A DNA stretch of 32,391 nt, from contig VBWB01000026.1 in assembly GCA_006218045.1 (NCBI GenBank), positions 1 to 32,391 of the forward strand, read 5' to 3'. Shown piece after piece: positions 17,213 through 25,838 of this stretch (position 1 is its first letter; every line of letters begins with the position of its first letter). This stretch comes from Stygiobacter sp. (GTDB lineage Bacteria; Pseudomonadota; Alphaproteobacteria; Rhodospirillales; Magnetospirillaceae). The notes under the pieces are model-generated. The model had not been told where the DNA came from, did no database searches, and was given only the letters and a program-made list of their open reading frames with translations. The position numbers were made by a program, and so were the translations under genes.

Positions 17213-17671
17213 TCAGGGCAGCGAGACACCTTCCAGTTTCAGCAAGGCCCGCTTGGTGTCGATCCCGTCCATGCCGGAATAGCCGCCCAACGATCCATTG
17301 GTCCCCAACACCCGATGGCAGGGGATGATGATGGGGATGGGATTGCGACCGCAGGCGGTGCCCAGGGCGCGCGGACCGGTCTCCAACTCGCGCGCCAGAT
17401 CGCCATAGGTGCGGACCTTGCCGAAGGGGATGCCGGCAATGGAAGCCCACACCTTGCGCTGAAAGGCGGTGCCATGGGGGGCCAGCGGCAGGTCGAAAGT
17501 GGTCAGGGCACCGGCGAAATAGGCTTCCAACTGGTCGCGGGCACGTTCCAGCAACGGCCCCGGCGGCTCGTCGGTTTCCGGTGGCCAGCCCCAATCGACG
17601 GCGACGATGGCCTCGTCATCGGCGAAAATGGTCAGCGGTCCCACGTCGGTGTTCAAACTGATGAACGGCAT
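17213..17671 (-). CDS. ogt: Methylated-DNA--[protein]-cysteine S-methyltransferase
   Basis: 152 residues. The active-site motif IPCHRVLG has nucleophile Cys118. TAFQRKVWASIAGIPFGKVRTYGDLA (helix-turn-helix and arginine finger, about 68-93), GTACGRNPIPII and the C-terminal NGSLGGYSGMDGIDTKRALL are typical. It repairs O6-methylguanine by irreversible transfer to cysteine. No Ada regulatory domain is present, so it is the Ogt-type stand-alone enzyme. It overlaps the upstream DUF255 gene by 1 base (TAATG). Confidence 0.94.
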   Translation of the reverse strand: MPFISLNTDVGPLTIFADDEAIVAVDWGWPPETDEPPGPLLERARDQLEAYFAGALTTFDLPLAPHGTAFQRKVWASIAGIPFGKVRTYGDLARELETGPRALGTACGRNPIPIIIPCHRVLGTNGSLGGYSGMDGIDTKRALLKLEGVSLP

Positions 17672-19623
17672 TATTCCCCCCTCAACATCCGGGCAAGGTC
17701 AGCGGGTGCGCCCGTGGGGGCGGAGCATACCGAATTGCGGCACAATGTCGCCAGGGCGTCGTCGGTCCAGCGGATGATCAGATTGGGCAAAGCCGCCTGA
17801 CGCACCACCTCGATCATCTCGGCATTACCGCGGGGCAGGGTGACCAGCACCGGCTCGGCCAGCAGATCAAAACCGCTCAGCAGCGCCGACATATTGGCGA
17901 AATGATCGTTGAACTGATCCATGAAGGCGCTGACCACCGTGTGGGCCCGTTCGGCATGAGCGGGAGCGTCGGTGATCTGGGCCAGGGTGGCCAATACCTG
18001 AACCATGGTGCCGTTGGCCGAGGGCACTGCCGCATCCATCACTGTCTTGGTCCTGACGATGACGTCGCCGACCTCGTGTGCCACCTGGAAATAGCCGCCC
18101 TTGGCCTGATCCCAATGATGGCGCTGGGCGGCACCGACCCAGGCCTCGGCCCGGGTCAGGTAGCCGGTCTCGCCGGTGGCCTGATAAAGCGCCAGGGCGG
18201 CGCGGGCCATATGGGCGAGATCGTCGACGAAACCCACTTGCGCGGCCTGACCCTGGCACAGGGAATGGGCCAGGCGGTCATCATCCAATTTCATCTTGTC
18301 GGCAATGACGGCGAAGGCCCGCTCGGCCATGTCCAGCCAGTGGGCGCGGGCGAAGACGAAACCGGCGCGGGCGAGGCCTGCGATCATCATGCCGTTCCAG
18401 TCGGCCAAGACCTTGTCGTCGCGACCGGGGCGGATGCGTTTGGCCCGGGCGGCCAGCAAGAGGACCCGGGCCCGGGCCAGTTGTTCCTCGTGCTCATGGC
18501 CTTGCGGCTTGGAGCGGTTGAGGATGTTCACCCCTTCCCAATTGCCCTGGACGCTGACGTCATAGGCCTGGGCGAAAACCCGGGCCGTTTCGGCACCGAG
18601 AAGATCGACGATCTCTTGCGCTTTCCAGGTATAGAAGCGGCCTTCATGCCCTTCCGAATCCGCGTCTAGGGCCGCGGCGAAGGCAGTGCCCTCGGCCAGC
18701 ATTTCACGTGAAACCCACGCGATGCATTCCTCGATACGGGTCTGGAACAATGGGTTTTGGCCGTCCTGCCAGACCAGGGTCAGCAGGTCCACCAATTGGC
18801 CATTGTCATAGAGCATCTTTTCAAAATGCGGCGCCAGCCACACGTCGTCGGTGGAATAGCGCATGAAGCCGCCGCCCAGATGGTCGGTGATGCCGCCCTG
18901 GCAGATGCGGTCCAAGGTCAGGGTCACCGCCTGGTGCAATCCGGCATCCTTGGTCCGTTTGGCCGATCGCCACAGATAATCGAACAGACCGGGCTGGGGG
19001 AATTTGGGCGCGCCGCCCAAGCCGCCATGTTCCATGTCCATATGGCCCAGGATGGCCTTGGCGCCGCGATCGAGCCTCTCCAGGGTCAGGGGAGAGGCAT
19101 CGCCGCCGCCTTCTTGCGCCAGGGCCTCGACCAGGGCGGCGACATTGTGGTCGACGCGGTCGCGGTCGCGTTGCCACAAATCATGGATCGCCTGTAACAC
19201 CTCGGGGAAGCCGGGGCGGCCATAGCGCGGCGCCGGCGGGAAATAGGTGCCGCCCCAGAACGGTTTGCCGTCGGGGGTGCAGAACATGGTCAGCGGCCAG
19301 CCGCCATGCTGGCCCATGTGGTGCAGGGCCTGCTGATAGATGGCGTCCAGATCAGGCCGTTCCTCGCGGTCGATTTTCACGTTGACGAACAGCCGGTTCA
19401 TCAGCTCGGCGATCTCCGCGTTTTCAAAGCTTTCATGGGCCATGACGTGGCACCAGTGACAGGCGGAATAGCCGATGGACAGCAAAAGCGGCCGCCCGCT
19501 GGAGCTGGCCTCGGCCAGGGCGGCGTCACCCCAGGACCACCAATGGACCGGGTTGTCCTGGTGCTGGCGCAAATAGGGGCTGGTTTCACCGGCAAGGCGG
19601 TTGGTCATGAAGCGGGCATCCAT
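17671..19623 (-). CDS. Thioredoxin-fold DUF255/YyaL family protein
   Basis: 650 residues. The N-terminal thioredoxin-like domain has NRLAGETSPYLRQHQDNPVHW and the redox-like SIGYSACHWCHVM (Cys55 and Cys58), then GGWPLTMFCTPDGKPFWGGTYFP. The remaining part is an (alpha/alpha)6-type barrel with GGITDHLGGGFMRYSTD, PHFEKMLYDNGQL and DWNGMMIAGLARA, as in the YyaL/spermatogenesis-associated protein 20 family. Its role is not established. M6 at 19608 (MTNRLAGETSPYL) matches relatives better than M1, so the true start may be 15 bases further in. A parS-like palindrome lies inside the gene at 18700-18715. Confidence 0.92.
   Translation of the reverse strand: MDARFMTNRLAGETSPYLRQHQDNPVHWWSWGDAALAEASSSGRPLLLSIGYSACHWCHVMAHESFENAEIAELMNRLFVNVKIDREERPDLDAIYQQALHHMGQHGGWPLTMFCTPDGKPFWGGTYFPPAPRYGRPGFPEVLQAIHDLWQRDRDRVDHNVAALVEALAQEGGGDASPLTLERLDRGAKAILGHMDMEHGGLGGAPKFPQPGLFDYLWRSAKRTKDAGLHQAVTLTLDRICQGGITDHLGGGFMRYSTDDVWLAPHFEKMLYDNGQLVDLLTLVWQDGQNPLFQTRIEECIAWVSREMLAEGTAFAAALDADSEGHEGRFYTWKAQEIVDLLGAETARVFAQAYDVSVQGNWEGVNILNRSKPQGHEHEEQLARARVLLLAARAKRIRPGRDDKVLADWNGMMIAGLARAGFVFARAHWLDMAERAFAVIADKMKLDDDRLAHSLCQGQAAQVGFVDDLAHMARAALALYQATGETGYLTRAEAWVGAAQRHHWDQAKGGYFQVAHEVGDVIVRTKTVMDAAVPSANGTMVQVLATLAQITDAPAHAERAHTVVSAFMDQFNDHFANMSALLSGFDLLAEPVLVTLPRGNAEMIEVVRQAALPNLIIRWTDDALATLCRNSVCSAPTGAPADLARMLRGE
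18700..18715. promoter_or_regulatory. parS: parS-like site 1 (divergent), inside the DUF255 gene
   Basis: The 16-mer CATTTCACGTGAAACC keeps the 12-base palindromic core TTTCACGTGAAA of parS and matches 13 of 16 consensus positions (TGTTTCACGTGAAACA). It lies in a coding sequence about 6.3 kb from the predicted origin. It may be a secondary ParB site; the outer bases are weak. Confidence 0.6.
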
Positions 19624-19953: not shown

Positions 19954-20291
19954 GTGTCAACACCGATCCCGATCCGTTTTATCGTATCCACGCCTTCGTC
20001 TGCACCAACCGTCGCCCTGATGACCATCCGCGCGGCTCTTGCGCTGCCCGGGGCTCCGAGCCGTTGCGCGATTACCTGAAGGCGGCGGCGAAGAAGAAGG
20101 GGGTGGGCGGTGTGCGCGTCAACGCCGCCGGCTGTCTGGACCGCTGCGAGCTGGGGCCGGTGCTGGTGATCTATCCCGAGGGCATCTGGTACGGCTTCAA
20201 CAGCCGCGAGGATATCGACGAGATCATCGACACCCATCTGTTGGGCGGTGGCCGCGTCACCCGGTTGATGTTGACCCCCGACCAGAAATGA
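19950..20291 (+). CDS. Thioredoxin-like [2Fe-2S] ferredoxin
   Basis: 113 residues with four Cys spaced as in thioredoxin-like ferredoxins: Cys18 (AFVCTNRRP), Cys31 (GSCAARG) and Cys62/Cys66 (GCLDRCELGPVLVIYPEG). The C-terminal WYGFNSREDIDEIIDTHLLGG is the usual helix. Such proteins bind one [2Fe-2S] cluster and transfer electrons; the partner is unknown. It overlaps the small gene before it and mnmE after it by 4 bases each. Confidence 0.9.
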   Translation: MSVNTDPDPFYRIHAFVCTNRRPDDHPRGSCAARGSEPLRDYLKAAAKKKGVGGVRVNAAGCLDRCELGPVLVIYPEGIWYGFNSREDIDEIIDTHLLGGGRVTRLMLTPDQK

Positions 20292-21595
20292 CGGTCGCCA
20301 CCATCTTCGCTTTGGCCAGCGCCCCCGGACGTGGGGGCGTTGCCGTTTTCAGGCTGTCGGGTCCGGCCAGTGCCGATGCCTTGCGCCGCCTGACCGGCAA
20401 GATTTCGCCGCCGCGTCTGGCCACCCGGGTGCGGGTGCGTCATGGCGATGAGGATATCGACGACGGTCTGGCGCTGTATTTCCCCGCCCCCCACAGCTTC
20501 ACCGGTGAAGAGGTGGTGGAACTGCATCTGCACGGCGGACGCGCCGTCGCCGCTGGCTTGTCCCAGGCTTTGCTGGAACTGGGCCTGCGTCCGGCGGAAG
20601 CGGGGGAGTTCTCGCGCCGTGCTTTCCTCAATGACAAGCTCGACCTGACCCGGGCCGAGGCCATCGCCGATCTGGTCGATGCCGAAACCGCCGCCCAACG
20701 CCGACAGGCGTTGAAGCAATTGGATGGGGGGCTGGCCGCTTTGGTCGAGGGCTGGCGTCAGGATCTGATCCGCGCTTTGGCCCTGACCGAGGCGATCATC
20801 GACTTTTCCGACGAGGGCATCGGCGACGATCTGGCCGACGATGTGTTGCGTCAGGTCCACGCCCTGATGGCCGACATGCGGGCAAAGGCGCTGGAAGGCC
20901 AGCGGCGCGAGCGGCTGCGCGACGGCATTCACATCGCCATCTTGGGCGCCCCCAATGCCGGCAAGTCCAGCCTGATGAACCGCATCGCCGGGCGCGAGGT
21001 GGCCATCGTCTCGGCCAAGGCCGGGACCACGCGCGACGTCATCGAGACCCATCTGGATTTGCACGGCTGGCCGGTGGTGCTGGCCGATACGGCGGGCTTG
21101 CGCGAGGCGGCCGAGGACATCGAGGTCGAGGGCATCGCCCGCGCCCTGGCTCGGGCGGAAAGCGCCGATCTGAAAATGCTGGTGTTCGACGCCGGCTTGC
21201 TGCCGGAGAGGGACGCGGCGACCCAAGCCATGATCGACACGGCCAGCATCGTCGTCTTCAACAAGGCCGATGTGGCGAATCCTGTCGACTCTGATGGCGG
21301 GATCATGGTATCCGCCCGCACTGGCCTGGGGCTTGATGCCCTGTTGGCCCGGCTGGAAAGCGAAGTGGCCGACCGCTTCGCCGTCGGCACCGAGCCGGCC
21401 CTGACCCGCGCCCGGCACCGGGCGGCGGTGGAGGAATGTCTGGCGGCGCTGGCCCGCTTCGATCCGGCCAAGCCGGTGGAACTGGCGGCCGAGGATTTAC
21501 GCCAGGCGGCCCAGGCCATCGGGCGGATCACCGGGCGGGTGGATGTGGAAGAACTGCTCGATGTGGTCTTCGCGGAATTTTGTATCGGCAAATAG
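20288..21595 (+). CDS. mnmE: tRNA modification GTPase MnmE
   Basis: 435 residues. The N-terminal folate-binding domain has TIFALASAPGRGGVAVFRLSG and RPAEAGEFSRRAFLNDKLDLTRAEA. The G domain is inserted in a helical domain: GAPNAGKSS (220-228), GTTRDVIE, DTAGLRE and FNKADV. The C-terminus CIGK (432-435) holds the catalytic Cys. With MnmG it makes 5-carboxymethylaminomethyluridine at the tRNA wobble position. The stop TAG is directly followed by the mnmG ATG. Confidence 0.97.
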   Translation: MTVATIFALASAPGRGGVAVFRLSGPASADALRRLTGKISPPRLATRVRVRHGDEDIDDGLALYFPAPHSFTGEEVVELHLHGGRAVAAGLSQALLELGLRPAEAGEFSRRAFLNDKLDLTRAEAIADLVDAETAAQRRQALKQLDGGLAALVEGWRQDLIRALALTEAIIDFSDEGIGDDLADDVLRQVHALMADMRAKALEGQRRERLRDGIHIAILGAPNAGKSSLMNRIAGREVAIVSAKAGTTRDVIETHLDLHGWPVVLADTAGLREAAEDIEVEGIARALARAESADLKMLVFDAGLLPERDAATQAMIDTASIVVFNKADVANPVDSDGGIMVSARTGLGLDALLARLESEVADRFAVGTEPALTRARHRAAVEECLAALARFDPAKPVELAAEDLRQAAQAIGRITGRVDVEELLDVVFAEFCIGK

Positions 21596-23473
21596 ATGTT
21601 TCACGTGAAACCCGATGAAACTTTGATCTGTGATGTTCTGGTCATCGGCGGCGGTCATGCCGGAGCCGAGGCGGCGTCTGCCGCTTCCCGCTTCGGCGCC
21701 GCCACCCTCCTGGCCACCCAGCGTCTGGAAACCATCGGCGAGATGAGCTGCAACCCGGCCATTGGCGGCTTGGCCAAGGGTCAGTTGGTACGCGAGATCG
21801 ATGCCCTTGACGGCGTGATGGGCCGGGCCATCGATAAGGGCGGCATTCAGTTCCGCATCTTGAACCGCAGCAAGGGACCGGCGGTGCAGGGGCCACGGGC
21901 TCAGGCCGACCGCAAGCTTTATCGCCAGGCGGTGCAGGCGCTGCTGGCCGAACAGGACAATCTGGCGCTGGTGCAAGGCACGGTCGAGGATTTGATCTAT
22001 AGGGACGGGCGGGTGGCCGGCGCCGTGCTGGCCGATGGCCGCACCATCGCTTGCGGGGCGGTGGTGGTGACCACCGGCACCTTCCTGCGCGGGCTGATCC
22101 ATTGCGGCGAACAGACCTGGCCCGCCGGTCGCTTCGGTGACGCGCCGGCCAATGGCCTGTCCGCCGCCCTGGCCCGCGCCGGCCTGCCGCTGGACCGGTT
22201 GAAGACCGGCACCCCGGCGCGGCTGGATGGCCGCACCATCCATTGGGACCAGTTGGAGATGCAGGCCGGCGATGATCCGCCGGTGCCGTTCTCCTATATG
22301 ACCGACAGGATCAGCACCCCTCAGATCGCTTGTGGCATCACCCATACCAGCGAGCGCACCCACGCCATCATCCGCGCCAATCTGCATCGGGCGCCCATGT
22401 ATTCCGGCCAGATCCAAAGCGTCGGTCCGCGTTATTGCCCCTCTATCGAGGACAAGGTGGTGCGCTTCGCCGGCAAGGACAGCCATCAGATTTTTCTGGA
22501 GCCCGAGGGACTGGACGACCCCACCGTCTATCCCAACGGCATTTCCACCTCGCTGCCCGCCGATGTGCAAGAGGCGATGATCCGCACCATCGCCGGTCTG
22601 GAGGATGTCACCATCCTTCGCCCCGGCTATGCCATCGAATACGATTTCGTCGACCCCCGGCAATTGAAGCGGTCGCTGGAAACCAAAACCATGAACGGTC
22701 TGTTTCTGGCCGGTCAGATCAACGGCACCACCGGCTATGAAGAGGCCGGCGCCCAAGGTCTGCTGGCCGGTCTCAACGCCGCCCGCTTCGTCGCCGGCAA
22801 TGAGGCCTTTATCCTCGATCGCGCCGACGCCTATATGGGGGTGATGATCGACGATCTGGTCAATTTGGGCACGCGTGAGCCCTATCGCATGTTCACCTCG
22901 CGCGCCGAGTACCGACTGATCCTACGCGCCGATAACGCCGACCTGCGCCTGACCGCCAAAGGCATCGAGGCCGGCTGCGTCGGTTCCGTCCGGGCCGCCG
23001 CCTTCACCGCCAAGGCCCAAGCGCTGGAAGAGGGCAGGGCGCTGCTCGACGCCTTGCGCGCGTCCCCCACTGTGCTGAAGAAGGCGGGGCTCGAGGTCAA
23101 CCAGGATGGAATCGTCCGCTCCGCCTGGGATTTGCTGGCCTATCCCAATATGGATTTGCCCCGTCTCGCCCAGGTCTGGCCCGCACTGGCGGTCTTGACC
23201 GGGGCGGTGGCCGAGCAACTGGAAATCGACGGCAAGTACCAGGGCTATCTGGCCCGCCAGGAGGCCGATATCCGCGCCTACCGGGCGGAGGAAAACCTGA
23301 CCTTGCCTTCGGATATGGATTACGACGCCATCGGCTCGCTGTCGGCGGAAGTGCGGCAGAAGCTTAAGGCGTCGCAGCCCGAGACGCTGGCGGTGGCGGC
23401 CCGCATCTCCGGCATTACCCCGGCGGCGATCACCGCCCTGTTGGCCCATGTCAAACGGCGCAATGCCGCATGA
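21596..23473 (+). CDS. mnmG: tRNA uridine-5-carboxymethylaminomethyl modification enzyme MnmG (GidA)
   Basis: 625 residues. The FAD site is [14 protein letters not shown] (about 15-27), then [53 protein letters not shown] and [24 protein letters not shown]. It partners MnmE. It starts MFHVKP, and those codons are a parS palindrome (21597-21612), so the protein N-terminus is shaped by the ParB site. The start is unambiguous because the ATG abuts the mnmE stop. Confidence 0.97.
21597..21612. promoter_or_regulatory. parS: parS site 2 at the mnmG start
   Basis: TGTTTCACGTGAAACC matches 15 of 16 bases of the parS consensus. It begins at the second base of the mnmG start codon. ParB binding here would load on the origin-proximal chromosome about 9 kb from the predicted oriC and 2.5 kb from parA. 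Confidence 0.9.
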
Positions 23474-23480
23474 CCCATAT

Positions 23481-24116
23481 ATGGTGTTTCACGTGAAACA
23501 AGACCACAAGAGCGATGGGCCGGACTGTCTGGCCCCCTTGTCCCTTTCCGCCGATGCCGTGACCCGGCTGGGGCTCTACGCTGACCTGCTGGTGAAGTGG
23601 CAGAAAACCATCAATCTGGTCGGCCCCGATACCATCCCCAGCCTGTGGTCCAGGCATTTCCTCGATTCCGCTCAGCTTTTCCCGCTTCTTCCCCAAAATA
23701 CCCACAGAGTTATCGACATGGGCAGCGGTGCCGGCTTCCCCGGTCTGGTGCTGGCCATCCTCGGCGCCCCCGACGTCCATCTGGTGGAATCGGATGCGCG
23801 CAAATGCGCCTTCCTGCGCGAGGTCGCCCGGGTGACCGAAACCCCGGTCACCATCCACAATGCCCGCATCGAGAAAGTACCGCCCCTGGGCGCCGATCTG
23901 ATCACCGCCCGCGCCCTGGCCCCCTTGGAAAAACTGCTGACCTGGGCCGAACCGCACCTGTTGCCCGGCGGCCACTGCCTGTTCCTAAAGGGCAGGGCGG
24001 CGGAAGACGAATTGACCCGGGCGGCCAAAGAATGGAATATCGCAACGCAACGGTTCCCGTCGCTGTCGGACCCGTCCGGCCTTGTCCTTCATTTAGAAGA
24101 GGTTCGCCGTGGCTGA
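23481..24116 (+). CDS. rsmG: 16S rRNA (guanine(527)-N(7))-methyltransferase RsmG (GidB)
   Basis: About 211 residues. The SAM-binding motif is VIDMGSGAGFPGLVLAILG (about 77-95), followed by VHLVESDARKCAFLREV and DLITARALAPLEKLLTW. It methylates N7 of G527 of 16S rRNA. ATG 23481 is taken as the start (MVFHVKQD); ATG 23463 (adds six residues, overlapping mnmG) or GTG 23484 are possible. The first codons coincide with a perfect parS. The TGA at 24114 lies inside the parA start region, overlapping by 8 bases. Confidence 0.95.
   Translation: MVFHVKQDHKSDGPDCLAPLSLSADAVTRLGLYADLLVKWQKTINLVGPDTIPSLWSRHFLDSAQLFPLLPQNTHRVIDMGSGAGFPGLVLAILGAPDVHLVESDARKCAFLREVARVTETPVTIHNARIEKVPPLGADLITARALAPLEKLLTWAEPHLLPGGHCLFLKGRAAEDELTRAAKEWNIATQRFPSLSDPSGLVLHLEEVRRG
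23485..23500. promoter_or_regulatory. parS: parS site 3 (perfect) at the rsmG start
   Basis: TGTTTCACGTGAAACA is an exact match to the 16-base consensus palindrome recognised by chromosomal ParB in many bacteria. It lies 0.6 kb upstream of parA and about 11 kb from the predicted oriC, the usual distance for a bacterial centromere. Confidence 0.96.
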
Positions 24117-24912
24117 GAATGGCAAAAAGCCGACCCGTGTCATCGCCATCGCCAATCAGAAGGGTGGGGTGGGCAAGACCACCACCGCCATCAATCTGGC
24201 CACGGCCATGGCGGCGACCAAGAAAACCGTGCTGCTGATCGACCTGGACCCCCAGGGCAATGCCAGCACCGGCCTGGGCATCGCCCGCGATGCCCGCGAC
24301 GTCAATTCCTATCACGTGCTGATCGGCGAGGCCGGCATGGCCGAAACCACCCACGACACCGAAATCCCTGGCCTCAAGATTGTGCCTTCGGGCGTCGATC
24401 TGTCGGGGGCCGAGATCGAACTGGTGGACATGGCCCGGCGTGAAGTCCGGCTGTCGGAAGCGCTGAAGCCGGCTTTGGGCGTCTATGATTATGTCCTGAT
24501 CGATTGCCCGCCATCGCTGAACCTGCTGACCCTCAATGCCTTGGTCGCCGCCAATTCGGTGCTGGTGCCGCTGCAATGCGAGTTCTTCGCCCTGGAAGGC
24601 ATCAGCCATCTGGTCAAGACCATCGAGGCCATCCGCAAGGGTTTCAACCCGACCCTGGAATTGCAGGGCATCGTGCTGACCATGTTCGACAAGCGCAACA
24701 ATCTGACCGAACAAGTGGCCGCCGATGTGCGCGAGTTCTTCGGCGAAAAGGTCTACAAGACGGTCATCCCGCGCAATGTCCGTATTTCCGAGGCGCCGTC
24801 CTATGGCAAGCCGGTGTTGATCTATGACCACAAATGCGCCGGCTCCGAAGCCTATATCCATCTGGCGGCGGAAGTGCTGAAGCGCGAAGTATCCTTGAGC
24901 AAGGGAGTGTAA
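24109..24912 (+). CDS. parA: Chromosome-partitioning ATPase ParA
   Basis: 267 residues. It has the deviant Walker A KGGVGKT (Lys18, Lys23), DLDPQGNAS, YVLIDCPPSL and VPLQCEFFALEGIS. ParA dimers bind DNA non-specifically and drive segregation of ParB-parS complexes. The start is GTG 24109 with AGAGG about 9 bases before it; the family start motif is VIAIANQKGGVGKTTT. It overlaps rsmG by 8 bases and parB begins 5 bases after its stop. Confidence 0.96.
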   Translation: MAENGKKPTRVIAIANQKGGVGKTTTAINLATAMAATKKTVLLIDLDPQGNASTGLGIARDARDVNSYHVLIGEAGMAETTHDTEIPGLKIVPSGVDLSGAEIELVDMARREVRLSEALKPALGVYDYVLIDCPPSLNLLTLNALVAANSVLVPLQCEFFALEGISHLVKTIEAIRKGFNPTLELQGIVLTMFDKRNNLTEQVAADVREFFGEKVYKTVIPRNVRISEAPSYGKPVLIYDHKCAGSEAYIHLAAEVLKREVSLSKGV

Positions 24913-24917
24913 GGACA

Positions 24918-25838
24918 GTGGCGGAAGACAAGCGTCGCAAGCTGGGCCGGGGCCTGTCGGCCCTGTTGGGGGATTCGGGCGTGGCCGCCGCCGCCGCCGT
25001 GGTCGAAGGGGCCGCCGTGCTGGCCGGGGAAACCGAAGCCGCGCCCATGGGCCTGCGCAATCTGCCGGTGGCGCAACTGAAGCCGGGCAAGTTCCAGCCG
25101 CGTCGGCAATTCGACGAAGCCGCCATCGCCGATCTGGTGGAATCGGTGCGGACCAAGGGGGTGTTGCAGCCCATCCTGGTGCGTCCGCATGAAGGCCAGT
25201 TCGAGATCATCGCCGGCGAACGGCGGTGGCGGGCGGCGCAGCGGGCGCAATTGCACGAAGTGCCGGTCATCATCCGCGACCTGTCCGACAAGGAAGCCCT
25301 GGAAGTCGCCCTGGTCGAGAACCTGCAACGCCAGGATCTGACCGCGCTGGAAGAGGCCGAGGGCTATCGCCGTCTGGTCGAGGAATTCAGCCACACCCAG
25401 GAAGAACTGGCCCGTGCCGTCGGCAAGTCGCGCAGCCACGTGGCCAATATGATGCGTTTGCTGGCCCTGCCGGGCCCGGTGAAGGATTTTCTCGACCAGG
25501 GCAAGCTGTCGGCGGGCCATGCCCGCGCCCTGTTGACCGCCACCGATCCGGTCGGCCTGGCCCAGCAGGTGGTGGACAAGCAATTGAACGTGCGGCAGAC
25601 GGAAAAGCTGGCCGGCGGCGAGGCGGGCGGTTCGGCCAAGGCAGTCAAGGGCAAAAGCCAGGGCAAGCCGTTCGACAAGGATGCCGATACCGCCGCCCTG
25701 GAGCGCGATCTGACCGAACAATTGGGCTGCCGCGTCACCCTGACCAGTTCGGGCAAGGGCGGCGAGCTGACCATCCATTACGGCAATCTCGAGCAGTTGG
25801 ACGACATCTTGTCGCGGCTGTCGCGCTCGGGCCTCTGA
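24918..25838 (+). CDS. parB: Chromosome-partitioning protein ParB
   Basis: 306 residues. The N-terminal KLGRGLSALLGD box activates ParA. The CTP-binding region has LKPGKFQPRRQFDEAAIADLVESVR and IIAGERRWRAAQR (about 98-110), then ENLQRQDL (134-141). A helix-turn-helix TQEELARAVGKSRSHVANMMRLL contacts parS, and the C-terminal dimer domain ends ILSRL. It starts at GTG 24918 with AAGGA nearby. It closes CTP-dependently around DNA after loading at the parS sites described here. Confidence 0.96.
   Translation: MAEDKRRKLGRGLSALLGDSGVAAAAAVVEGAAVLAGETEAAPMGLRNLPVAQLKPGKFQPRRQFDEAAIADLVESVRTKGVLQPILVRPHEGQFEIIAGERRWRAAQRAQLHEVPVIIRDLSDKEALEVALVENLQRQDLTALEEAEGYRRLVEEFSHTQEELARAVGKSRSHVANMMRLLALPGPVKDFLDQGKLSAGHARALLTATDPVGLAQQVVDKQLNVRQTEKLAGGEAGGSAKAVKGKSQGKPFDKDADTAALERDLTEQLGCRVTLTSSGKGGELTIHYGNLEQLDDILSRLSRSGL

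Follow-up and report, generated by a model that had tools for sequence, protein, structure and literature searches.

A stretch of 32,391 nucleotides from Stygiobacter sp. (contig VBWB01000026.1; hereafter the window) carries two palindromes at the starts of mnmG and rsmG. Very probably, both are parS sites on which ParB of the chromosomal ParABS system loads, and DNA binding is what has preserved them at these two places beside parAB. This reading is built on features directly visible in the sequences: conservation of position and of codons, changes of reading frame, site changes shared within a genome, and paired changes of ParB residues and site bases. Overall, the relatives compared indicate that the amino acids at these gene starts are set by the DNA site and not by the needs of the protein.

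As shown in Table 1, the sites lie in a gene order that Pfam assigns as MnmE, MnmG, RsmG, ParA and ParB. In the mnmG frame, TTTCACGTGAAAC comes immediately after the ATG at 21596 (ATG-TTT-CAC-GTG-AAA-CCC, MFHVKP), and in the rsmG frame the same TTTCACGTGAAAC follows ATG GTG at 23481 (ATG-GTG-TTT-CAC-GTG-AAA-CAA, MVFHVKQ), which is one of three in-frame ATGs for rsmG (23448, 23463, and 23481). Both gene-start sites have an in-frame GTG at their center. One frame of the palindrome reads VSRET, the second reads (N)TG-TTT-CAC-GTG-AAA (FHVK, with two possible starts), and the third holds a TGA stop.

When up to three mismatches were allowed, TGTTTCACGTGAAACA matched the window three times (at 18700 with three mismatches, at 21597 with one, and at 23485 with none), compared with a mean of 0.06 matches and a maximum of 1 in 100 shuffles of the window. 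Similarly, the core TTTCACGTGAAA occurs three times in the 4.33-Mb assembly (62 contigs), always in the window, and the reversed-pattern control gave 0. The three cores fall within 5 kb and at most 7.2 kb from parB, the rarity and clustering that mark chromosomal parS, and the two gene-start sites depart from the 16-bp chromosomal parS palindrome by zero and one mismatch. The shuffles and the genome count rule out chance palindromes and confirm the preliminary description in placing two parS-type sites, one of them a perfect 16-mer, on the starts of mnmG and rsmG. The site at 18700 is additional to these two; its codons are the same in the window and four relatives, and one other aligned DUF255 locus (L214) reads VEREM in other codons. 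A degenerate pattern for FHVK gave 14 strand matches in the genome, of which six are the three palindromes on both strands and eight use other codons. Noc-binding sites were considered and rejected: these are of the ATTTCCCGGGAAAT type and go with Noc Q173/R201, whereas the sites here are GTTTCACGTGAAAC and the ParB has R173/G201. Separately, away from the par locus, the genome of the window (G000) contains TTTCACGCGAAA half-variant sites at five scattered places (contigs C17, C21, C36, C39, and C53).

Table 1. Genes and putative parS sites at the mnmE-parB locus of the window
Feature	Coordinates	Strand	Remarks
DUF255 / thioredoxin-like gene	17671..19623	-	Pfam PF03190; holds site 3
parS-like site 3	18700..18715	+	core TTTCACGTGAAA (12 bp) intact, 3 end mismatches; WVSREML in minus-strand DUF255 gene
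mnmE	20270..21595	+	Pfam; start putative; TAG stop abuts mnmG ATG
mnmG (gidA)	21596..23473	+	Pfam PF01134; putative start
parS 1	21597..21612	+	TGTTTCACGTGAAACC, 1 mismatch to TGTTTCACGTGAAACA; starts at second base of mnmG ATG; reads (M)FHVKP
rsmG (gidB)	23481..24116	+	Pfam PF02527; putative start
parS 2	23485..23500	+	perfect TGTTTCACGTGAAACA, 5' end of rsmG; reads (MV)FHVKQ
parA	24109..24912	+	Pfam PF13614
parB	24918..25838	+	Pfam; contact residues R173 and G201 (Caulobacter numbering)

The same loci were compared in a class sample of 150 mnmG loci, two of them from G118, taken from the 149 of 172 searched genomes that gave a match, and in an order sample of 28 new loci, drawn from 105 genomes with a match (120 searched). 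Named relatives at 84-87% MnmG identity include three Magnetospirillum records, so that the genus is probably Magnetospirillum in a broad sense. Two protein motifs, GGGHAG in MnmG and KW..INL in RsmG, served as anchors for the site positions. By the rule used, a site at the mnmE-mnmG junction is present in 99/150 class loci (51/150 are without it) and in 22/28 order loci. Among the 90 class loci with a measurable mnmE end, the median start of the site is 13 nt downstream of the mnmE stop (68/90 within -2 to +40 nt), and its distance to mnmG is more variable than that to the mnmE end. The junction site therefore looks tied to the end of mnmE, and the mnmG start would meet parS because the mnmE-mnmG spacer is short.

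The rsmG counts exclude 38 of the 150 class loci, in which no rsmG was recognized beside mnmG. At 55 nt before KW..INL (-55), the site is exact in 80/112 class loci, carries one or two changes in 9/112, and is absent there in 23/112; the corresponding figures in the order sample are 16/28, 1/28, and 11/28. Any site within -200 to +60 of the motif was found in 95/112 class loci (17/112 are without one) and in all 28 of 28 order loci. A strict -55 pattern, which encodes VSRET, matched 161/385 class genomes, with no reversed-control match among the rows listed. In a phylum sample of 299 genomes (by row count, 113 of the same class or closer and 186 of other classes), it matched 54, all of them in Alphaproteobacteria, and 0/186 in the other classes. 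Judged by these sequence matches, both parS places are widespread in Alphaproteobacteria.

Presence of the site goes with the partition genes. Among 120 loci with longer flanks, parS is present in 92/95 with parA or parB nearby versus 11/25 without them. Two of the three exceptions with parA/parB, L137 and L144, carry variant palindromes. The third, L118, has parA, parB, and rsmG near mnmG and a ParB with R173/G201, and no parS-like palindrome was found in its 6.1-kb locus. L070 was scored as lacking parS yet carries a variant palindrome.

We next consider whether codons or residues are conserved. Of the 82 loci of the class sample with VSRET at -55, 80 have the exact 14-mer, compared with 0.34 expected from the codon use of the same mnmG genes; of the two exceptions, L012 is a one-base variant and L022 a symmetric alternative palindrome. 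Across RsmG, VSRE is written in parS codons in 111/113 cases, the exceptions again being L012 and L022. Conversely, VSRET is absent from the -55 place in all 34 loci without a site there (23 class, 11 order), and many different peptides occupy that place. FHVK behaves in the same way: relatives that keep the peptide in synonymous codons, the observation named beforehand as speaking against the sites, were not found for MnmG, in which FHVK has parS codons in 29/29 cases (178 loci), and for RsmG it has them in 13/14 (140 loci); the remaining case, L140, differs from parS by one base. Taken together, these counts (80/82, 29/29, and 13/14) point to a constraint on the DNA beyond coding needs. The MnmG FHVK frame was counted upstream of the GGGHAG motif, and such upstream frames may include untranslated spacer; the useful point is therefore the absence of these peptides in other codons. 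In a conservation profile, third codon positions scored 0.991 in the site and 0.438 in the flanks; since the rows had been preselected for carrying the site, the profile is given no weight here. Moreover, close relatives place the palindrome of one gene region in different frames, reading FHVK, VSRET, or CFT*. The proposal of the preliminary description that the sites do a double job, as centromere and as coding DNA, is supported, the parS identity being assigned from sequence, gene context, and ParB residues.

Given that VSRET is the commoner class mark, FHVK, which had been put forward as a signature for finding parS, proved too narrow: overlap of the site with the mnmG start was seen in 15/176 rows, and by these sequence counts VSRET in RsmG is the better parS signature. 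That overlap, scored under a rule allowing no ATG between the site and GGGHAG, required six changes on a FastTree MnmG tree of 176 of the 178 rows, compared with a mean of 14.5 for shuffled labels, and none of 500 shuffles was as low. The frame would be easily used as a start because the full parS edge (TG) always offers an N-TG in addition to the GTG. Among members of the family of the window organism, the mnmG-frame TTT is preceded by ATG, GTG, CTG, ACG, GCG, or a stop. In L155, L182, and L190, no in-frame ATG, GTG, or TTG occurs upstream of the central GTG of the palindrome as far back as the nearest stop, and L182 has GGGAGGG 9 nt before this GTG. We infer the start codon used in each case; in these three loci, only the parS-internal GTG is available, and a protein begun there would omit MFH, so that the earlier claim that the sites fix MFHVKP is not supported.

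Within the genus and family of the window organism, the rsmG site also changes place. At the -55 place the rsmG of the window encodes LSADA, its FHVK being found at -113, and its genus mostly has FHVK further upstream in place of VSRET at -55. A congeneric sister, L159, combines FHVK at -110 with VSRET at -55. Elsewhere in the family, L156-L158 carry VSRET at -127 and -55, although the -127 copy may precede the start codon; L160 likewise has VSRET, together with an FHVK reading that lies before a stop.

Alterations of one site are often, though not always, shared by the other. One to three changes in the -55 14-mer were found in 11 of the 140 loci with rsmG, and in six of the 11 (L022, L033, L070, L098, L117, and L119) the other site has the same change. 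In L022, both sites are TGTTTCGCGCGAAACA, a 14-mer found only twice in that genome, and VSRET is kept by two synonymous changes. Both sites are TGTTCCACGTGGAACA in L070, where RsmG reads VPRGT and the 14-mer occurs eight times in the genome, and TGTTTCATGTGAAACA in L098 (VSCET). L117 and L119, which belong to one family, have TTCCACGTGAAAC in both sites (VPRET), and L033 has the same central change in both sites on opposite strands (VSHET). Four loci (L015, L089, L166, and L169) combine one canonical with one altered site, and a site can therefore also decay alone; L012 was assigned to neither group. Two genomes are of note in their own right. G101 (L070, L247) contains GTTCCACGTGGAAC eight times on seven contigs, and its ParB has K204. 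G143 (L095), a 0.9-Mb genome placed in the family of the window organism, has no TTTCACGTGAAA but has TGTTTCATGTGAAACA after the mnmE stop.

The ParB residues that contact the site were then compared with the site bases. The ParB of the window reads GKSRSHVAN...SAGHARA, giving R173 and G201 when aligned to the Caulobacter crescentus ParB (6t1f), which is parS-type specificity. In the work on ParB/Noc specificity residues (PMC7383237), two links are drawn to the 14-bp site, from residue 173 to its base 1 and from residue 201 to its base 6; the paired changes in our sample agree with both. Our 96 ParB rows comprised the loci with a ParB of at least 80 bits, that of the window, and four variant-site additions (L022, L070, L098, and L117); the L117 ParB was taken from its own genome, and the G395 ParB was aligned and left out of the count. 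R173 and G201 occur together in 92 of them. Of the remaining four, one could not be aligned at 201, another carries S173, and A201 is found in two (L022/G109 and L144/G069, from different families). The available part of PMC7383237 describes R173 and G201 as absolutely conserved in extant ParB, whereas here A201 (2/96) and S173 (1/96) occur together with altered matching bases. The base-6 palindrome GTTTCGCGCGAAAC was found only in the two A201 loci among the 96, a pairing with a chance of 1 in 4560 if the rows are independent; the choice of rows favors variants, yet the A201 of L144 was found before its sites. In the S173 locus (L122/G135), both sites are altered at base 1, and neither is a perfect palindrome. 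Base-4 and central variants occur with R173 and G201 unchanged and are therefore not explained by residues 173 and 201.

In L144, where ParB A201 goes with the base-6 change, the mnmG start is ATG TTT CGC GCG AAA, so that MnmG begins MFRAK, not MFHVK; the central GTG is gone, and GGGAGG lies 9 nt before the ATG. As a separate observation, the 2.0-Mb genome of L144 (G069) has 137 matches to NTTTCNCGNGAAAN, compared with 0 for the reversed control. They are mostly TTTCGCGCGAAA and TTTCACGCGAAA and are clustered; among the matches listed they lie on C7, C22, C27, C32, C34, C38, C39, and C41. It is possible that G069 is a genome with very many dispersed parS-like sites.

Could the peptides themselves be the object of selection, with FHVK and VSRET maintained because MnmG and RsmG need them to work, and the palindrome a coincidence of coding? 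The very wide conservation of VSRET at one position of RsmG is what such an explanation would predict. However, the codons are fixed as well as the residues (80/82), relatives have the same DNA in other frames or outside genes, loci without the site show many different peptides at the VSRET place, and the peptides shift with the palindrome (VPRGT, VSCET, VPRET, and MFRAK). On this codon and frame evidence we rejected conservation at the peptide level, which we regard as very improbable. Hardly credible, and the least probable of the alternatives, is control of mnmG and rsmG translation by an mRNA hairpin that the palindrome would form at the start codon. Although the palindrome can pair with itself and overlaps the start region, neither start region folded better than shuffles (z -0.72 and -0.29), on which ground the hairpin was rejected; furthermore, what is kept is sequence identity including the loop, not pairing alone, and it is kept in spacers and in the DUF255 gene on the minus strand as well.

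A further alternative accepts the sites as parS and adds that ParB spreading represses mnmG, rsmG, or parAB; the preliminary description had suggested such silencing of mnmG and rsmG. The location of the sites at gene starts upstream of parAB would suit it, and, according to the part of PMC7022226 available, ParB represses some genes beside parS in Pseudomonas aeruginosa. In Bacillus subtilis, however, loss of Spo0J left the genes beside parS unchanged (PMC7022226, same part). We consider such repression unlikely, and the suggested silencing of mnmG and rsmG is unsupported.

Returning to sites kept for DNA binding, we propose that they occupy two places, one directly after the mnmE stop codon and one near the 5' end of rsmG, and that reading frames settled onto the palindromes. 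In most Alphaproteobacteria with the sites, the first lies between mnmE and mnmG, and the second, read as VSRET, lies within rsmG. In the family of the window organism, the mnmE-mnmG spacer has shrunk to almost nothing, which brings the mnmG start codon onto the site, and in its genus the rsmG site mostly lies further upstream and in another frame. From known ParB biology, we infer that ParB binds and loads at these sites in chromosome segregation; it would nucleate there, slide over mnmG-rsmG-parAB, and build the partition complex. The N-terminal peptides may then be by-products of the centromere. Extending this to the whole class is, on balance, probable, with somewhat less confidence: the centromere would write the N termini of MnmG and RsmG; the palindrome would supply the mnmG initiation codon in several lineages, through its edge NTG or central GTG; and a change of a ParB recognition residue would bring a change of the site base and hence new codons (MFHVK to MFRAK, with VSRET kept only via paired synonymous changes), so that ParB specificity, the centromere, and two proteins would co-evolve as one unit.

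That parS sites occur within genes is already known from three systems, as far as the accessible parts of the respective reports go (PMC5815017, PMC4368675, and PMC9040568). The parS cluster of C. crescentus (PMC5815017) is, like the present one, alphaproteobacterial, clustered, and of the same consensus; it has five strong sites within 5 kb, and the genes that hold C. crescentus parS are reported to be essential or to carry a high fitness cost. The parts of that report at hand contain nothing on start codons, frames, or peptides and no occurrence of gidA, gidB, mnmG, or rsmG. In P. aeruginosa (PMC4368675), nine/ten predicted sites are within coding sequences, and intragenic parS have been mutated without amino acid change; this is a Gammaproteobacterium, however, and no start-codon overlap or class-wide peptide mark is described in the part available. 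For alphaproteobacterial repABC replicons, positive selection of parS has been proposed to act even where the site is part of a coding sequence (PMC9040568, in part), but these are plasmid/chromid RepB sites of another partition family and not the chromosomal mnmG-rsmG-parAB locus. In the open-licence literature, covered by titles and the beginnings of abstracts, we recognized no description of parS in the coding starts of mnmG/rsmG (gidA/gidB); nor did this literature yield an account of VSRET as a mark in RsmG, of the overlap with a start codon, or of a natural A201 pairing.

Overall, the findings suggest that a centromere leaves a readable and widespread peptide mark in a conserved enzyme. 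The evolution of ParB and its site would then be traceable from protein sequence alone, through VSRET and its variants in RsmG, and natural changes of ParB-parS specificity could be found at the contacts known from crystal structures. Conservation of the RsmG and MnmG N termini in these bacteria, accordingly, need not mean enzyme function.
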